A DNA stretch of 28,683 bases, taken from positions 1 through 28,683 of the forward strand of contig NBIV01000728.1 of assembly GCA_003194525.1 (NCBI GenBank), given 5' to 3'. Position numbers and translations under genes: made by a program. Source of the stretch: Gracilariopsis chorda (taxonomy: Eukaryota > Rhodophyta > Florideophyceae > Gracilariales > Gracilariaceae). Numbering within the stretch: position 1 is the stretch's first letter; every line of letters starts with the position of its first letter. This document shows positions 7,416-17,495 of this stretch, one piece after another. Below the pieces are notes generated by a model, which worked only from the letters and a program-made list of their open reading frames with translations, did no database searches and had not been told where the DNA came from.

Positions 7416-8663
7416 TCATACGACTCCCGAGAGACCATAAATGTAAGGTCTCGTGGAGACGAGAGCTTCGGTGTTCTTCGGACGTTCGAGTGGAGGTCTG
7501 AAGTCCAGTTCGTGGCTGCACCAGACACTACCAACCTCCGTAAATATCGAATCAACGCTTCTGAGATGTCTCATCGCATACACGCGGAACATATCGAAGT
7601 CTATCGTATCTCCCAATATATCACGAAGAACAGTTTCCAATCGGTTTATGAGAGCGTCCATGACGTCCGGGAGCGGCCGTTTGAGCATCCAAAGTTGTAT
7701 CTTTACCCGACTCCTCCCGTTCCCCTCTTTTCGCCCATACTTCCGACAAGCTTTTTTCGTGCCATCAATAACAGCACCATGAGCGACACCGAGTGACTTT
7801 TCAAGACAAGAGGCAAGACAATCAGAAGAAAGCTCCGCCATTGGATCCCAAGAGTCGAAGCGCAATACATTGCGGTTCTTGCAGTCTTGGTCATCCTTTA
7901 TCCGGCTCTCAACGAAAGACAGGAAACAACTTGCTTCATCTCCTGCGCATGCACTTGCTTCTTTGGCTTGATACGCACATCTCAGTATATACTCGGATAT
8001 AGCACACATATGAATAACAAGTTCTTGCATTCTTGCGAGTGTATTGTCTTCAAACCACTTCTTTGCAATTGTTCCGTCGCTTCTGCCCGGGCTGTAGAGA
8101 GCTATTGCATTCTCGGGCAAGGAGAAGCGATGTACCCTCCTATCGCCAACCACCATATTTCGTCCATACAACAACTTTAAACCGCTGTAGACGATCCTAG
8201 AGGAGGGATAGCGAGACATGGCGTCAAAAATGTTCCTTCCCCGGCCTTCTCCTGGGAGTTTCGCCGACAGGGCACAAACGTTCTCCCACATACTAGTCTC
8301 ACCCTTCCAGTACTTCGAGCCATTCATCAAAATGCGCACGTCGTACTGCTTGACAATCTTTTGAGCAAAGGACCGCGCGTTGTAGAAAGACTTTGTGTTC
8401 TGATTTCTCAAGAGGCCATGCGCCTCTTCAGTTTCTTCGACTTCCGCATCCATACGTTCTCGTACCCAGCGCACAACATCTGGAATCGATTCAGAAAGTA
8501 CTATCTTCCGTGGTTGCAGTTCTTTTCTAGCTGCGTTTTCACGAACCTTCACATTACTGATGATCCTCTTCCTACCACTCTTTGTGATCTTCTTCGACAC
8601 TCCTTTCCAGGCAGTTGCACCTTTCGCATCGCTGTTTGAGGCCCTTGCTCTTTCTTGTGCCAT
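7416..8663 (-). CDS. Unrecognised 415-residue protein
   Basis: I do not recognise this protein. The frame is open for 420 codons from an ATG at 8678. I prefer the second ATG at 8663 (MAQERA) because its context, GGCATGG, is better for eukaryotic initiation. The first 50 residues are basic, with a nuclear-localisation-like KKITKSGRKR. The rest is mixed alpha-helical in character, with no signal peptide, no membrane segment and only scattered cysteines. Motifs that might serve for a search are KSFYNARSFAQKIVKQYDVR and SSRIVYSGLKLLYGRN. It is the longest uninterrupted frame left of the piggyBac element and shows no frameshift, unlike the relics around it, so it may be a real lineage-specific gene. 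A weak TATA-like CATATAG lies about 115 bases upstream of the preferred start. Confidence 0.6.
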   Translation of the reverse strand: MAQERARASNSDAKGATAWKGVSKKITKSGRKRIISNVKVRENAARKELQPRKIVLSESIPDVVRWVRERMDAEVEETEEAHGLLRNQNTKSFYNARSFAQKIVKQYDVRILMNGSKYWKGETSMWENVCALSAKLPGEGRGRNIFDAMSRYPSSRIVYSGLKLLYGRNMVVGDRRVHRFSLPENAIALYSPGRSDGTIAKKWFEDNTLARMQELVIHMCAISEYILRCAYQAKEASACAGDEASCFLSFVESRIKDDQDCKNRNVLRFDSWDPMAELSSDCLASCLEKSLGVAHGAVIDGTKKACRKYGRKEGNGRSRVKIQLWMLKRPLPDVMDALINRLETVLRDILGDTIDFDMFRVYAMRHLRSVDSIFTEVGSVWCSHELDFRPPLERPKNTEALVSTRPYIYGLSGVV

Positions 8664-8679
8664 GCCTCTCTTCCTCATG

Positions 8680-10900: not shown

Positions 10901-12064
10901 ATGGCTACCCACACTGCCCACGAGATCCTCGATCATTCCAAGAGACTGTCTTGTTCGTCTTCAACACCAGCCCACATTTCTCCTGTTCACTTTGCAGGCA
11001 TGGACGCCGTATCGTTCGAGGAATTCAAATCTGTGCATGATCTGCCTCACGAATATGATGCAGCTACCCCTCAACACAATTTGCGCCGCAGGAGCACAGA
11101 AGCTGTCACCCTGAGATCCGTTGGGGATATGAAGCTACGTATCCGCCCACAACTCAGGAAGAAGTCATCACGGAAGAAGCTGTCGAAGATGTCGAATTTA
11201 TGCTTCAGGTCTTCCAAAGGACCCACCTCAACGCACATTATCCAACCTGTCTCTGATGTTGAACCTGAGGCACATAGTTTGTGTTTAAGGTCATCAGCAG
11301 AATTCTGTTCCATAGAAACAATCAATCTCGTGTCTGATGTAGAATTGGAAACCGAGAGGGTTCGTGACTCAGTCGAACATGTTACTGAGATGGAATCAGG
11401 AACACAAAGCGACAGTGACGTTATTGACCTTGTGTCCGAAGGAGAATCTGAGACATCTACCGGTGTAAAAGGGGAGGATTGCGGGGGAGAGCCCTCCAAT
11501 GGCAATGGAAACGTGACAAGTCGAACAGAAGCTGCCTGGAGGTTTAGAATCAAGGCTCTGAAGAAAAAGAACCCGAGAATCTTTGATAACAAGGAAGCGC
11601 GGATGGAAATTCGCACCAAAGCGAAGCAGGGCCACACGGTTTACATGGGAATCGGGGTGGACACTTCAAATTGCGATGGACTTAGAAGCGTTATGGATTT
11701 CGTTTGCTGTCCAGAATTCAACTTAAACCCGAGTGAGAGGTGGAAAAAAGAGTTGAGGACAACTGTGTCTCAGTTCTTGCGTTGGTGCGTGGCCAACTCT
11801 GCTTGCCACAAATACGACGTTTGGAAACGGAGCGCCTTGTTCGAAAATGTGTCGAACAAGACTCTTGTGGAAACGTTTCTTGGATATTTTCTTGAGCGCT
11901 GTTCCACCCGAACTTTCTACTCAAAAGCAGAACAGCTTTCCGCCATATGCGAGGCAGCTCGCCCTACCCTCAATGAAAGCCAAAGGGGGAAACTTGGCGA
12001 AGTTATCGCCATCCTCGACAGCGTTGGGCACAGGACAAGAGCAGTGGCTTTTACAAAACTCTAG
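10901..12064 (+). CDS. Protein with three SIM-like motifs and a recombinase core-binding-like C-terminus
   Basis: Intact 387-codon frame. Residues 78-97 are strongly basic (RKKSSRKKLSK), suggesting nuclear entry. Three spaced copies of a hydrophobic-plus-acidic motif follow: IIQPVSDVE (113-121), INLVSDVELE (141-150) and VIDLVSEGESE (174-184). These match the pattern of SUMO-interacting motifs. Residues about 205-250 are basic and helical. Residues about 285-375 (TVSQFLRWCVANS, TLVETFLGYFLERC, RTFYSKAEQLSAICEAA) resemble the SAM-like N-terminal core-binding domain of tyrosine recombinases, but no catalytic R-H-R-Y domain follows before the stop. It could be a domesticated or truncated recombinase-derived nuclear protein, or an unrelated helical protein. 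The start is either ATG 10901 or the better-placed ATG 11000 (residue 34). It converges on the kinase gene, with 167 bp between the two stop codons. Confidence 0.65.
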   Translation: MATHTAHEILDHSKRLSCSSSTPAHISPVHFAGMDAVSFEEFKSVHDLPHEYDAATPQHNLRRRSTEAVTLRSVGDMKLRIRPQLRKKSSRKKLSKMSNLCFRSSKGPTSTHIIQPVSDVEPEAHSLCLRSSAEFCSIETINLVSDVELETERVRDSVEHVTEMESGTQSDSDVIDLVSEGESETSTGVKGEDCGGEPSNGNGNVTSRTEAAWRFRIKALKKKNPRIFDNKEARMEIRTKAKQGHTVYMGIGVDTSNCDGLRSVMDFVCCPEFNLNPSERWKKELRTTVSQFLRWCVANSACHKYDVWKRSALFENVSNKTLVETFLGYFLERCSTRTFYSKAEQLSAICEAARPTLNESQRGKLGEVIAILDSVGHRTRAVAFTKL

Positions 12065-12231: not shown

Positions 12232-13017
12232 CTACTGTTTCCCACATGGATCATTGATAACGTTCAAATACTCTTCCAGTTTCTGCAGCGCAAAGATATC
12301 GTTTTCAACTTCTGAAGTCACAACACCCGTTCGGGAAAAGCCCAATGTCCCAGTCTTAGATCCCAGCGGCTCTCCTTCGCGGCGACATGAATCAAAATCT
12401 ATGAGCACTGGAGTATTACAGCCGTCGAACATCACGTTGTCTGGGCTAATATCATTGTGACAGAAACCTAAAGCGTGCAAGTGCTGAATTCCCTTCTTAA
12501 CTGACTGGATACAAAAGGCTCTATCGACTTTACGCGGACAACCATCGACGCGTTCGCGCAGGGTCTCACTGTATCGCTCGAAACAGAGCCCAACGATGTA
12601 TCCGTCTTTGACCTCACACCCCAAATACTTTGCTATGTTAGGGTGAGGGGATTTTCTCAAGATCTCACATACTTTGGCTTCCTCACGCATCACTTTCCAC
12701 AGTTGAGTGTCTTCTTCGCTTTCCTTGCATGTATACATCATCACATTTGGCCGCTTAATGTAAACCTTATCCCTTGGTGATACTGAGACATTGGTAAAGC
12801 TTTCTACATCAAAACGAGGATAAATATCGTTCCTGTCGATTTCCCGACCGTTTAATGTATGAAGATCGAGGCTTTGTAAGTCCGAGTCATATACCCGACG
12901 TGGAATTGTGGTAACAAAGACTTTCTCTTGGTCTGTGTAGAGAACGGCTGTGAAAGAAAACTTCACGACTCCCTCTTCTCCCAGCTCATATATAAATTCG
13001 GTCTTGAGCAGCTTCAT
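12232..13017 (-). CDS. Small divergent protein kinase
   Basis: Protein-kinase-like fold in 261 residues. Residues 1-80 are an N-terminal part without a clear glycine loop. VYIKRP supplies the ATP-binding Lys (88). REEAKVCEIL supplies the helix-C Glu (about 113). HPNIAKYLG precedes a hinge-like GLCFERYSETL. The catalytic loop is CHNDISPDNVMFD (D189, N194), so HRD reads HND. The magnesium loop is IDFDSC, DFD instead of DFG (D207). GTLGF and ENDIFAL (D240) close the domain, and there is no APE. All residues needed for phosphotransfer are present, so it is probably active despite its shortness. The combination HND...DFDSC is one I know from fungal and algal kinase-like proteins. It has no membrane segment or signal peptide. 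A good ATG at 13017 is the only long start. It is intact, unlike most neighbours. Confidence 0.85.
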   Translation of the reverse strand: MKLLKTEFIYELGEEGVVKFSFTAVLYTDQEKVFVTTIPRRVYDSDLQSLDLHTLNGREIDRNDIYPRFDVESFTNVSVSPRDKVYIKRPNVMMYTCKESEEDTQLWKVMREEAKVCEILRKSPHPNIAKYLGCEVKDGYIVGLCFERYSETLRERVDGCPRKVDRAFCIQSVKKGIQHLHALGFCHNDISPDNVMFDGCNTPVLIDFDSCRREGEPLGSKTGTLGFSRTGVVTSEVENDIFALQKLEEYLNVINDPCGKQ

Positions 13018-13612: not shown

Positions 13613-13616
13613 TTAA

Positions 13617-13629
13617 CCCTTTTGAACCG
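13617..13629. repeat. piggyBac left terminal inverted repeat
   Basis: CCCTTTTGAACCG directly follows TTAA and pairs with the right end at 17312-17324 with one mismatch. The run CCC(T)n after TTAA is typical of piggyBac-superfamily ends. Confidence 0.9.
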
Positions 13630-13639
13630 AAACGATTAT

Positions 13640-13776
13640 CGCTACTATACTAGCGTTAAGGTGAAAGCCTTATTGGCTTGCGACGAAAACAACTGGTTCT
13701 CTGTTCGCCAGGTGTCTTCAAAGCTTAAAGCTAGTATACTAGCGCTAAAGATTACTTTGTTCTCATTGGCTTTCAC
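13640..13776. repeat. Subterminal palindromes and inverted repeats of the piggyBac left end
   Basis: Two copies of TATACTAGCG(T/C)TAA lie about 90 bp apart (near 13646 and 13736), each in a palindrome: imperfect at 13641-13655 and a perfect 14-mer, GCTAGTATACTAGC, at 13730-13743. Just inside each is one arm of an inverted pair, GTGAAAGCC (13661-13669) and GGCTTTCAC (13768-13776). They may be transposase-binding sites or promoter operators, lying just upstream of the TATA box. Confidence 0.7.
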
Positions 13777-13812
13777 ATGATTTTATGATGATGACAACCA
13801 ATTAGAACAGTC

Positions 13813-13818
13813 TATATA
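13813..13818 (+). promoter_or_regulatory. TATA box of the piggyBac transposase gene
   Basis: TATATA within TCTATATAGGG. A transcript start near 13845 would give a leader of about 150 bases to the first usable in-frame ATG at 13999. Upstream ATGs at 13876, 13883 and 13940 open only very short frames. Confidence 0.5.
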
Positions 13819-13998
13819 GGGAGATATTAGCCACAATCAGAGCACTCTTTGCCACCCGCATATCATTGCAAATTCATGCATAATGCAGAACAACGAGACA
13901 CAACTTGAAGCCTCATAACGCAGTCAAAAGTGCCCCGAAATGAACAGACTACCACCAAATATACTGACCCAATCTTACTTCTCCCATCCGCTGTTAGT

Positions 13999-16104
13999 AT
14001 GTTGTTCGCGGAAATGAACGGTTCTAAATCTAACGCCACTGCACAATTCAATGACTTAGAATGCAACTTTCACGAAGCTGGTGAAATAGACTGGCAGAAA
14101 ACGGACGACGAAGAGTTTCTGGTCATTGCTTTGGGAACAGCTGAAAAACAATCTGTATACGATACAGTGCCGTATTGCTCTTTGTGGCGCAACAGAAGTG
14201 GGTTATATTTGGCAAAGTCAGAACTTATACAACGTACTTATTCTCACAGGGATGAACTGGGATTGCTTGGGTTATTCTTGAATGAATCCTTTTTAGAATG
14301 TGTACGTGATTGGACTAGTAAAGAACTTGTAAATCGTGGGCAGAGAAGTAAGGCATTGAGAATGGACGAACTACTTGCGTATCTTGGGCTGGAACTAGCT
14401 ACATCTATACATCTTCTAAATCATCTTCGAGATTACTGGTCCAATTCAGACCTCTTAGGGATACTATTTTTCAAACAGACTATGGGACGGGATAAGTTTA
14501 TGAACATCCGAGCTTCGCTCCGTCTGTATCCTTGTTATGATTTCGATGCTGCCGTTCTTGACCCGTTGTGGCACAGCCGTCAGCTTCTTGAACATTTCGC
14601 AAGAAATGCAGCTACAATTGCGATTCCTGTTGGTGTGAGTTCTCTTGACGAAAACACAGTACGATGTAAAGGTCGTACTGGGGCTCGATCTTATATGAAA
14701 TCGAAACCGGTCAAGTTTGGGATTCACTTTTACGCTGTGGTGGGTTGGTCACACGCATATTTACATAGCGTGCAAGATAATGGTTCTGGGAGTAAGTCAG
14801 GTCAATCGCCTGTACAGCGATACACATATACATTTAGAAATCTCCGAGGTGCTGTGGAACGAAAAGTGGACGGAACACTGGTTGCTAAATCTACTTCGTC
14901 GGCGTTATGGTGCGCCCAAATGGCGCATCAGACACAACTGCACCCTACACCTTCTTGTGGACGTTTGATGGTAATGGACAACTTCTACACACGCCACGTC
15001 CTTGCCCGTCAGTTACTTTGCCTTAGCGATGGGGAGTGCAGAGTTTTGGGTACTGTTCGTTTTACCAACATTGACGGAATGAACAGACCAGCGCTGAAAG
15101 AGGCCATCGAGAGCCTCAAACATGCAAATCGTGGTGTCTGGCGTTTAGTTCAAGTGTTACAGAGAGAAGGTAGCGCAAACATGCCGGTAACAGTCGCAGA
15201 GAAAACAGGGTTTGTCGTTTTCAAAGACAGAGCAGTAGTGTCGTTTTACTCAAATGATCTCGCGGATACGCCAAGGTTACGCATTCACGCACCGGATCCA
15301 CATGCTGTTACATGCGTGCAAGGACTTGCGTCTTTACAAAGTTGGGTTGGACATGAATCTGTACGGCGAACAACCTTACAAGTTCCTGCAATTATCGTTG
15401 CTTACAACCTTTTTATGAATACTGTAGACAGGTTCGATCAATTTCGATCGACTTCGGCGACGTTGAGAAAGGAGGAGCGAGTTTCAATGAGCCTTCCTAC
15501 CTTCATCCTGGATGCGAGTATTATCAACGCCCACGCGTTATTGAACGCAATCAGCAAGAAAGGAGACACTATTATTGACCTTCAAGTCATGAAACAGAGG
15601 ATAATCAAACAGCTTGTATCGGACCACGTTACATACCAACAACAACGAGCGTCAATTTCGTCACCTACATGCCGTGAAGACGCTGCTTGTCTCCGTGTCA
15701 GGAAAGGTGGGGAAAGAAGAGACCATCATATTTTGCTCGAAACTGAGGGCAAGCGTAGCGTACGGTGTTTGCTGTGCAAAGCCCTGTCAAGATCTAACCC
15801 AGGGTACACTATCTACTCCTGTACGGAGTGCAAGTGTGGATTCCACGTCAATTGCTTCGCACTTTTCCATCAGAAAGAGGCGTTCCGAAATGTTCGTCCT
15901 GATATATACAACGCAGTGAAATCTGCCGAGGTTATACTGTCATCCTCATTACATCGCAATAGAAGAAAAAAAGTTACCGCAACCCTGAAAACCGTCCGAC
16001 TGCTGTACAAGAAGTACAACTATTGTTCTTTGAACCCCATATACGCACCACATTCATCTGGCCAAAGTCGTCTGATTCTTTCCAATGCGCATCGCGGTAT
16101 TTGA
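13999..16104 (+). CDS. piggyBac-like transposase (DDE_Tnp_1_7 family), intact
   Basis: Cut-and-paste transposase that excises and inserts the element at TTAA. The open frame runs from 13930, but its first ATG is 13999, giving 701 residues. Numbered from the ATG, the catalytic aspartates are D217 (SSLDENT, followed by GRTGARSYMKSKPVKFGIH), D327 (MVMDNFYT) and D477/D480 (NTVDRFDQF). These match the D-D-D plus D pattern of piggyBac, including the D-x2-D spacing. The C-terminus has a Cys-rich zinc-binding domain beginning near residue 590 (CLLC, then YSCTECKCGFHVNCFALFH), as in transposase-associated zinc ribbons. There is no stop or frameshift over 2.1 kb. Its last 85 bases overlap the 3' end of the convergent accessory ORF. 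An alternative is a spliced start upstream of 13930; the 5' end is the least certain part. Confidence 0.95.
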   Translation: MLFAEMNGSKSNATAQFNDLECNFHEAGEIDWQKTDDEEFLVIALGTAEKQSVYDTVPYCSLWRNRSGLYLAKSELIQRTYSHRDELGLLGLFLNESFLECVRDWTSKELVNRGQRSKALRMDELLAYLGLELATSIHLLNHLRDYWSNSDLLGILFFKQTMGRDKFMNIRASLRLYPCYDFDAAVLDPLWHSRQLLEHFARNAATIAIPVGVSSLDENTVRCKGRTGARSYMKSKPVKFGIHFYAVVGWSHAYLHSVQDNGSGSKSGQSPVQRYTYTFRNLRGAVERKVDGTLVAKSTSSALWCAQMAHQTQLHPTPSCGRLMVMDNFYTRHVLARQLLCLSDGECRVLGTVRFTNIDGMNRPALKEAIESLKHANRGVWRLVQVLQREGSANMPVTVAEKTGFVVFKDRAVVSFYSNDLADTPRLRIHAPDPHAVTCVQGLASLQSWVGHESVRRTTLQVPAIIVAYNLFMNTVDRFDQFRSTSATLRKEERVSMSLPTFILDASIINAHALLNAISKKGDTIIDLQVMKQRIIKQLVSDHVTYQQQRASISSPTCREDAACLRVRKGGERRDHHILLETEGKRSVRCLLCKALSRSNPGYTIYSCTECKCGFHVNCFALFHQKEAFRNVRPDIYNAVKSAEVILSSSLHRNRRKKVTATLKTVRLLYKKYNYCSLNPIYAPHSSGQSRLILSNAHRGI

Positions 16105-16382
16105 ACTCGTTTCCCCTTCCTTAGGAAGCCATGTCTTTCGTACGTGAACGCCTTATACGCAGATTTCCGTGCATGGTTATTGTCCTCCTTTGTTTTACCA
16201 AGAGCAGGATAAAAATGCGCTACTTTCTCGACGACTGTCGGACCTAGCTGCATCCAGTAGCACGGAGTTCCACCACAGATATGGCACGCAATGTCCTCAT
16301 TGTGAGTGGTAATAGGCGGAATGAAACGCAGTACTGCGTTTACTTCAACGGTGCTCGAATCACTTGTGGGTTCAAGGGCCAT
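16020..16382 (-). CDS. piggyBac accessory ORF: 120-residue Cys-containing small protein
   Basis: The frame is open far upstream, but the upstream part lies in GC-rich minisatellite. The ATG at 16382 (context CAATATGGC) begins the protein-like part. Features are CHICGGTPC (a C-x2-C-x4-C group), then a basic region ending RKSAYKAFTYERHGFLRKGKR, then PRCALERIRRLWPDECGAYMGFKE at the C-terminus. From memory, small proteins with this ending (G-L-x-KG-x-R, I-P-x-C, I-R-x-x-x-P, Y-x-GF) occur beside transposon genes in algae and stramenopiles; I cannot verify this here. It is encoded inside the transposon, convergent with the transposase and overlapping its end by 85 bp. It is likely a second element-encoded protein, possibly DNA-binding. 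Confidence 0.6.
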   Translation of the reverse strand: MALEPTSDSSTVEVNAVLRFIPPITTHNEDIACHICGGTPCYWMQLGPTVVEKVAHFYPALGKTKEDNNHARKSAYKAFTYERHGFLRKGKRVQIPRCALERIRRLWPDECGAYMGFKEQ

Positions 16383-16560
16383 ATTGAAGGTTTTGGTTTT
16401 TTGTGAAGTCTCATACTGGCGTTTCGATGTGTGGCTCTCATTTGAGCGGCACGCGCAATGTGATGCTTTGATGGAGTTTGCAGAGACAAAGTTGAAAGTG
16501 GCTAATGTTTGGTGCCTGTTCTTTTTCTTGCAGAATATGGTTTCCAGCTTGCATGGCGAA

Positions 16561-16608
16561 CAGCGGCAGCACAGCGACGGCGCACAGCGGCAGCACAGCG
16601 ACGGCGGC
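16561..16608. repeat. Tandem 24-bp GC-rich repeat, two copies
   Basis: Two consecutive near-identical 24-base units starting CAGCGGCAGCACAGCGACGG, at 16561 and 16585. They open a GC-rich low-complexity block that continues to about 17060. Confidence 0.8.
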
Positions 16609-16708
16609 AAAGCGGCAACGCAAAGCGGTAGCACAGCGGCGGCGCACAGCGGCATCACAGAGGCGGTGCACAACCGTAGCTCAGCTGCAGCGCACAGCGG
16701 CTGCGACA

Positions 16709-16860
16709 GCGGCGGCGCCCGGTTACAGCGGCGGCGCCTGGTTACAGTGGCGGCGCACGGCCACAGCGGCAGCGCCCTGTTACAGCGGTGGCGCACGGCC
16801 AAAGCGGCGGCCGTCGGTTACAGCAGCAGTGCGCGGTCACAGCGGCATTGCACGGCTGCA
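16709..16860. repeat. 19-bp minisatellite, eight units
   Basis: Eight consecutive units of 19 bases, consensus about GCGGCGGCGC(C/A)(C/T)GGTTACA, at 16709, 16728, 16747, 16766, 16785, 16804, 16823 and 16842, with increasing divergence to the right. The period is not a multiple of three, so the long GC-rich ORFs here are repeat artefacts. It lies inside the transposon between the accessory ORF and the right terminus. Confidence 0.85.
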
Positions 16861-17311
16861 GCGGCTGCAGCGACGGCGTACGGCGGCGGCCGCGGGGCGT
16901 GGAGGGAGCGGCGAGAGGTTGCGGTGGCGCGAGGCTGCGGAGGCGCGCAATGCTGTGCGTTTGGCGCGTGGGCGCGCGACTGCACGCGGAACAGCAGGTG
17001 CGTAAGAGTTTGCGGCTGCGTGTGGTGTGGCAGCGGTGTGAGCGTGGACGGCGCGGCGGCGCAGCTGCTGGCAATCCAGTGGGGTTTGGTAGGAGAGAAC
17101 TCGAAGGTACAAGTGATAGTATCCGATTGCGGTAGTATGTGAAGTTTTCAGAAGACTTCACATTCCAGCGCGATGCGCAGAAGTCATCATATTGTGTGTT
17201 ATGGCTCTCGCAGAATGCATCGGACGGAAATTGATTGAATCCTGAGCTTACAAGCGCTCCATTCCAACTGGATAGTTTCTTATTGCTACCATAGTAGCGT
17301 TTAGAATTCTC

Positions 17312-17324
17312 CGGCTCAAAAGGG
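17312..17324. repeat. piggyBac right terminal inverted repeat
   Basis: Reads CGGCTCAAAAGGG on the plus strand and is followed by TTAA. It is the inverted partner of 13617-13629, with one mismatch. Confidence 0.9.
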
Positions 17325-17495
17325 TTAATCTCTCAACAACCAATAGAAGTGTTTTGGTTCTCATACGTGCGTCAGATTCGCAACACAATCAACTTGCAAC
17401 AACTCACCCCACAAGAATCACGAACGTTTACTTTTCGTCCTATCAATAAGCTAACGTAATGGCTGTGAAAGCCCAAAAATAAAGGGTTTCAAATA

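Follow-up and report, generated by a model that had tools for sequence, protein, structure and literature searches.

The genome of the red alga Gracilariopsis chorda contains a piggyBac-type transposon in which the transposase gene (ORF1) is paired tail to tail with a second, short gene (ORF2), whose product resembles the ballast domain of the P2X7 receptor and the KolX protein of Kolobok transposons. We analyzed a stretch of 28,683 nucleotides (here called the window), which is contig NBIV01000728.1 (C709) of the 91.3-Mb genome, together with related loci elsewhere in the assembly. Sequence comparisons established ORF2 as a gene with a recognizable domain, a conserved pairing and order relative to ORF1, and a history of selection. 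The features concerned are as follows.

13613 to 17328, forward strand: complete piggyBac-type element, 3,716 bp from TTAA to TTAA, with an empty site and near-full copies elsewhere in the genome
13613 to 13625, forward strand: left terminal repeat TTAACCCTTTTGA, 13 bp, including the TTAA target duplication at 13613 to 13616
17316 to 17328, reverse strand: right terminal repeat, TTAACCCTTTTGA reversed, including TTAA at 17325 to 17328
13999 to 16104, forward strand: ORF1, the transposase, 701 amino acids (aa) from the ATG; ancestral length 672 aa, with the end codon at 16015 to 16017
15766 to 15858, forward strand: cysteine-rich, zinc-finger-like C-terminal part of the transposase, with weak C1/PHD matches below the cut-off
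16015 to 16017, forward strand: lost transposase stop codon (codon 673), TAC here and TAA in copies L004 to L008
16020 to 16382, reverse strand: ORF2, 120-aa P2X7-ballast/KolX-like gene, coding from 16382 to 16023, stop at 16022 to 16020
16555 to 16947, no strand assigned: tandem repeats rich in G+C that lie upstream of ORF2, in the interval before the right end, with units of 13 to 38 bp containing CAGCGGC

A sequence-only reading of this DNA had described a complete and probably recent insertion, bounded at both ends by TTAA and matching 13-bp repeats. Completeness was confirmed by an empty site on contig C476, where the joined flanks aligned over 304 of 304 nucleotides with 96% identity around a single TTAA, the target sequence that piggyBac elements duplicate on insertion. 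A second uninterrupted site, on C375, matched the joined flanks from position 1 to 304 with 95% identity. Nine places in the genome carried a near-full element (94 to 100% identity; one in two pieces), and the terminal repeat was common to element copies with other flanks; the copies on C84, C21 and C4, for example, had different flanking sequences with TTAA on either side. The motif TTAACCCTTTTGA was also found beyond ORF2 in diverged copies on C240, C5, C30, C277 and C287. The same insertion, flanks included, was present on three contigs, namely, the window, C835 and C458. C835 had zero mismatches to the window in the aligned stretch, with small gaps, and C458 was 95 to 99% identical to it, the flanks at 98.7% and 97.4% and the elements at 95.2%. 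These three occurrences may represent separate haplotypes, duplicates created in assembly or a segmental duplication. Of 3,681 scored columns, 58 showed the window copy differing from the majority. Because the site is duplicated and the window copy has many private changes, the proposed recent origin of the insertion is doubtful and was not upheld.

The transposase frame was unbroken, as had been read from the sequence, and ORF1 matched DDE_Tnp_1_7 (PF13843) with an E value of 1.7e-29 (103.7 bits against a cut-off of 22.4). ORF1 could be aligned to the piggyBat and piggyBac structures. As in piggyBac transposases, the domain was accompanied by three catalytic aspartates, for which D217, D327 and D477 are the candidates; all were invariant in the 5 proteins aligned. 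We take these residues to correspond to D268, D346 and D447 of piggyBac, on the basis of the piggyBac numbering and of the structure alignments, in which the surroundings of the first and third aspartates are displayed but those of the second are not. The cysteine-rich C-terminal part of ORF1 aligned with the C terminus of piggyBat, in a low-scoring stretch.

On the opposite strand, ORF2 is a real gene, matching the Pfam family P2RX7_C (PF20478), the P2X7 ballast/KolX domain, above the curated cut-off (E value 1.2e-7; 32.3 bits against 23.5); the match covered model positions 138 to 192 of 192, that is, the last third only. The 12 best matches of a Foldseek search with ORF2 were all P2X7. A protein search with ORF2 alone gave nothing at an E value of ≤0.001 among 3 candidates; a profile search of proteins gave 6 at ≤0.01 among 369 candidates. 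The G. chorda protein BWQ96_04952 (P0002) is 100% identical, from end to end, to a place on C64. Viral contigs scanned with ORF2 and with ORF1 yielded no relative. The cysteine cluster and conserved C terminus noted in the sequence-only reading were borne out. C33, C36, C41 and C98 did not vary among the 7 proteins aligned, and C98 fell opposite P2X7 residue 572. These four take the place of the seven (to eight) conserved zinc-binding cysteines of the ballast family, a set that ORF2 does not have in full. When 18 genomic ORF2 pieces were aligned, decayed ones included, the four cysteines were incomplete in those on C72, C75, C1:515 and C22. The ORF2 product may bind zinc.

Homologues of ORF2 adjoined other piggyBac-like transposases in the genome, giving strong support to the earlier proposal of a conserved convergent partner. 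The genome searches scored the best candidates only, and the counts given here are lower bounds. Each of the 15 P2RX7_C matches listed in the genome lay convergent beside a relative of ORF1. A wider search with ORF2 listed 50 matches at 48 places (those on C4 and C45 were each split in two), and for 43 of the 50 a related transposase lay tail to tail within 2.6 kb. The 43 comprise 33 from a proximity count (34 less C99), 7 and 2 from loci examined, and 1 on C8; the proximity count used the listed ORF1-like transposase matches and 11 DDE_Tnp_1_7 matches picked by hand. C99 was excluded since its adjoining PF13843 match was not shown to belong to the group of the window element. Five further ORF2-like matches were convergent at 3 to 7 kb, C99 at 3.3 kb and those on C130, C201:19234, C44 and C374 at 5.8 to 7.0 kb; C88 and C36:154105 had no related transposase nearby among the listed matches. 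None of the 50 stood in any other orientation to a related transposase. Viewed from the transposase side, an ORF2 match adjoined 24 of the 25 listed transposase matches that reached residue 670 or beyond, the exception being C89:219820. Outside G. chorda, a relative of ORF1 (P0007; 65%) and a relative of ORF2 (P0001; 57%) each came from a 3,093-base contig of the same source, which suggests that a single contig carries both genes.

Between the window and C240, ORF2 codon positions 1, 2 and 3 were identical at 76, 90 and 40 of 116 codons, respectively (Fisher P = 5e-11), and the same bias was observed between the window and C287 (P = 3e-10), C19 (P = 4e-5) and C64 (P = 8e-4). The proportions of replacement (pN) and silent (pS) differences for ORF2 between the window and C240 were 0.28 and 0.80; for ORF1, two comparisons between subfamilies gave pN values of 0.17 and 0.25 with pS values of 0.83 and 0.85. 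ORF2 proteins of different subfamilies were 30 to 60% identical, with gene order and spacing conserved. Judged by these comparisons, both genes are clearly under purifying selection between subfamilies, synonymous change being saturated and the protein kept.

Within the subfamily of the window element, by contrast, ORF1 had 231 replacement and 64 silent changes and ORF2 had 35 and 11, corresponding to ratios of replacement to silent change per site (N/S) of 1.15 and 1.00, respectively. These counts used 7 of 8 copies, as L002 was dropped for being the same as L001; L001 and L003 represent the same insertion. Pairs within other subfamilies, C240/C277 and C64/C62, gave N/S values of 3.5 and 0.7 from few changes. 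Neutral destruction of the ORF2 frame, which the sequence-only reading had held would speak against a functional partner, was found among copies of one subfamily and would by itself have counted against such a partner, but between subfamilies the frame is under purifying selection. Because that selection is clear, the neutral decay is best attributed to dead copies. These data indicate that inserted copies decay freely and that the lineages that spread keep both proteins; selection between subfamilies combined with free decay after insertion points to a gene that serves the element rather than the host.

We also examined the junction at which the two genes meet. The frames of ORF1 and ORF2 overlap by 85 bp in the window, as had been noted; as a property of the element, however, the overlap did not stand. 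The codon at 16015 to 16017 reads TAC here and in the same-site duplicates on C835 and C458 but TAA in all five other insertions read (L004 to L008; a sixth, on C45, was left out of this reading), and the transposase relatives P0007, P0008 and P0017, from other sources, end close to the ancestral stop position. The last 29 residues of ORF1 and the overlap therefore result from the loss of one stop codon, private to a single insertion site. The ancestral ORF1 stop lies 2 bp from the ORF2 stop. Among copies with both stops in place, the gap was 2 bp on C84, C21, C469, C20, C240, C5 and C277, 1 bp on C30, 4 bp on C62 and C35, and 9 bp on C75, in each case without overlap; at several other loci one or both stops could not be placed. 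C64 also shows an overlap, of 14 bp, and there again the transposase stop has been lost, although it is kept in the near relatives C62, C35 and C56. A coding overlap as a conserved trait is thereby refuted. The suggestion that antisense pairing of the coding ends gives mutual control of the two genes drew on these overlaps, and with stops 1 to 9 bp apart the two transcripts may well overlap in their untranslated 3' ends. However, since the suggestion was built on a private stop loss, we found no support for it and regard such control as very unlikely.

The same genome holds a second, larger group of piggyBac-like elements. All of the 30 best DDE_Tnp_1_7 loci (L024 to L053) matched the transposase of this other group, and none of the 30 had a match to ORF1 or ORF2 at an E value of ≤1e-3. 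Their ends read GTGTCTATC..., with CTAG in place of TTAA beside 25 of the 28 left ends and 25 of the 28 right ends located, and they have no second gene. For the copy on C228, the joined flanks matched uninterrupted sites with 74 to 80% identity; for that on C90, the joined flanks gave no uninterrupted site. A literature search for piggyBac with CTAG listed no title on a CTAG-flanked group.

On balance we favor, without regarding it as settled, the reading that the ORF2 product is a nuclear accessory of the transposase. On this view ORF1, a DDD transposase, would insert the element at TTAA sites, and ORF2, read convergently to it, would supply a small protein of the P2X7-ballast/KolX type that binds zinc and most likely acts in trans, inside the nucleus, by binding the transposase or the element ends. 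Elements keeping ORF2 would propagate and those losing it would not, while each inserted copy drifts; ORF2 would be selected along active lineages because elements without it fail to propagate. Since selection has retained the gene in related elements, ORF2 probably helps the element move, and we infer help rather than inhibition. Accessory proteins act in this manner in other two-gene DNA transposons, such as the Myb-like protein of Harbinger and MURB of MuDR.

A less likely, though still credible, explanation is that ORF2 was selected as an anti-silencing factor or a repressor of copy number and not for cutting or joining. Regulation predicts the same pattern of selection; it suits the presence in this genome of piggyBac-group elements without ORF2, as for a control function, and a ballast domain with no known catalytic role, whose function is called unclear in the available text of PMC9859053. 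However, a repressor should often be lost in spreading lineages, and the presence of ORF2 at 24 of the 25 listed places that have a transposase 3' end argues against this. That ORF2 is a mere passenger with no function for the element, whether captured from the host or a foreign source or inserted as a nested element, is highly improbable: single copies do decay neutrally and several ORF2 copies contain stops, but order and spacing are conserved across the divergent subfamilies together with the codon-position bias, and the orientation relative to the transposase does not vary among the listed matches. Its conserved pairing, codon-position bias and purifying selection led us to reject the view that ORF2 is a frame open by chance or merely carried along. 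There is also a small chance that the ballast/KolX-like protein serves as a portable module for TTAA transposition, exchanged between Kolobok and piggyBac, two TTAA-duplicating superfamilies without a common relationship, and assists in choosing, opening or restoring TTAA sites. Such a module would fit the contrast among the DDE_Tnp_1_7 elements of this genome between TTAA with ORF2 and CTAG without it, but it is weakened by the fact that classical piggyBac elements elsewhere use TTAA without such a gene. An accessory role alongside the transposase accordingly remains our preferred reading of ORF2.

Other open frames in the window were also inspected. Within the element, the tandem repeats at 16555 to 16947 keep the ORF2 frame open by chance up to 16817; several frames are open across these repeats, without evidence of coding. 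Three open reading frames were noted outside it.

12235 to 13017, reverse strand: 261-aa frame that matches part of a protein kinase domain (Pkinase, E value 2.4e-12)
7419 to 8678, reverse strand: 420-aa frame with no Pfam match over the cut-off
10901 to 12061, forward strand: 387-aa frame with no Pfam match over the cut-off

piggyBac elements are generally regarded as having a single gene. Like Harbinger and MuDR, the element described here couples a transposase with a second gene, and the MuDR genes are also convergent; the proteins and superfamilies are unrelated. The second gene had been called notable for a piggyBac element, and it is a conserved partner but not the first such gene to be reported: one sentence in the accessible portion of PMC9587614 states that the proteins encoded by a few piggyBac families include one similar to the C-terminal part of KolX, without most of the seven cysteines. 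This kind of element is therefore already in print. That paper was the only source in the literature searched that joins piggyBac with a ballast/KolX protein; subscription papers and Repbase lay outside that search, and a fuller earlier description may exist. As far as that literature shows, the present analysis adds the conserved tail-to-tail pairing, selection on both genes and a four-cysteine site in a red alga; the portion of PMC9587614 available does not treat gene order, selection or the spacing of the stops, and the piggyBac families it mentions lack most of the seven conserved cysteines.

According to the same portion of PMC9587614, the ballast fold is present in KolX of Kolobok. The element resembles Kolobok in being a DNA transposon that duplicates TTAA and encodes a second protein, one that probably shares this fold. 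It differs in that its transposase belongs to a different superfamily and that ORF2 matches only part of the Pfam model. It also departs from the rule given there for Kolobok termini, 5'-RR...YY-3' beside TTAA, as it starts with CCCTTTTG after TTAA and thus begins with CC. The cysteine motifs of the ballast domain were defined in PMC7016195 for the P2X7 receptor, Nanor and other ballast proteins, in text that, as far as it was available, makes no mention of transposons or algae. Unlike the P2X7 receptor, ORF2 has no channel, and it has four cysteines instead of seven or eight. In PMC9587614, as available, a transposon protein of this type is given as the origin of the ballast tail of vertebrate P2X7, and the role of that tail is the one called unclear above, so that the part played by such proteins in transposition is of wider interest. 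The many diverged relatives of the element that keep the second gene under selection within one red-algal genome form a tractable set for studying the role of KolX/ballast proteins in transposition.
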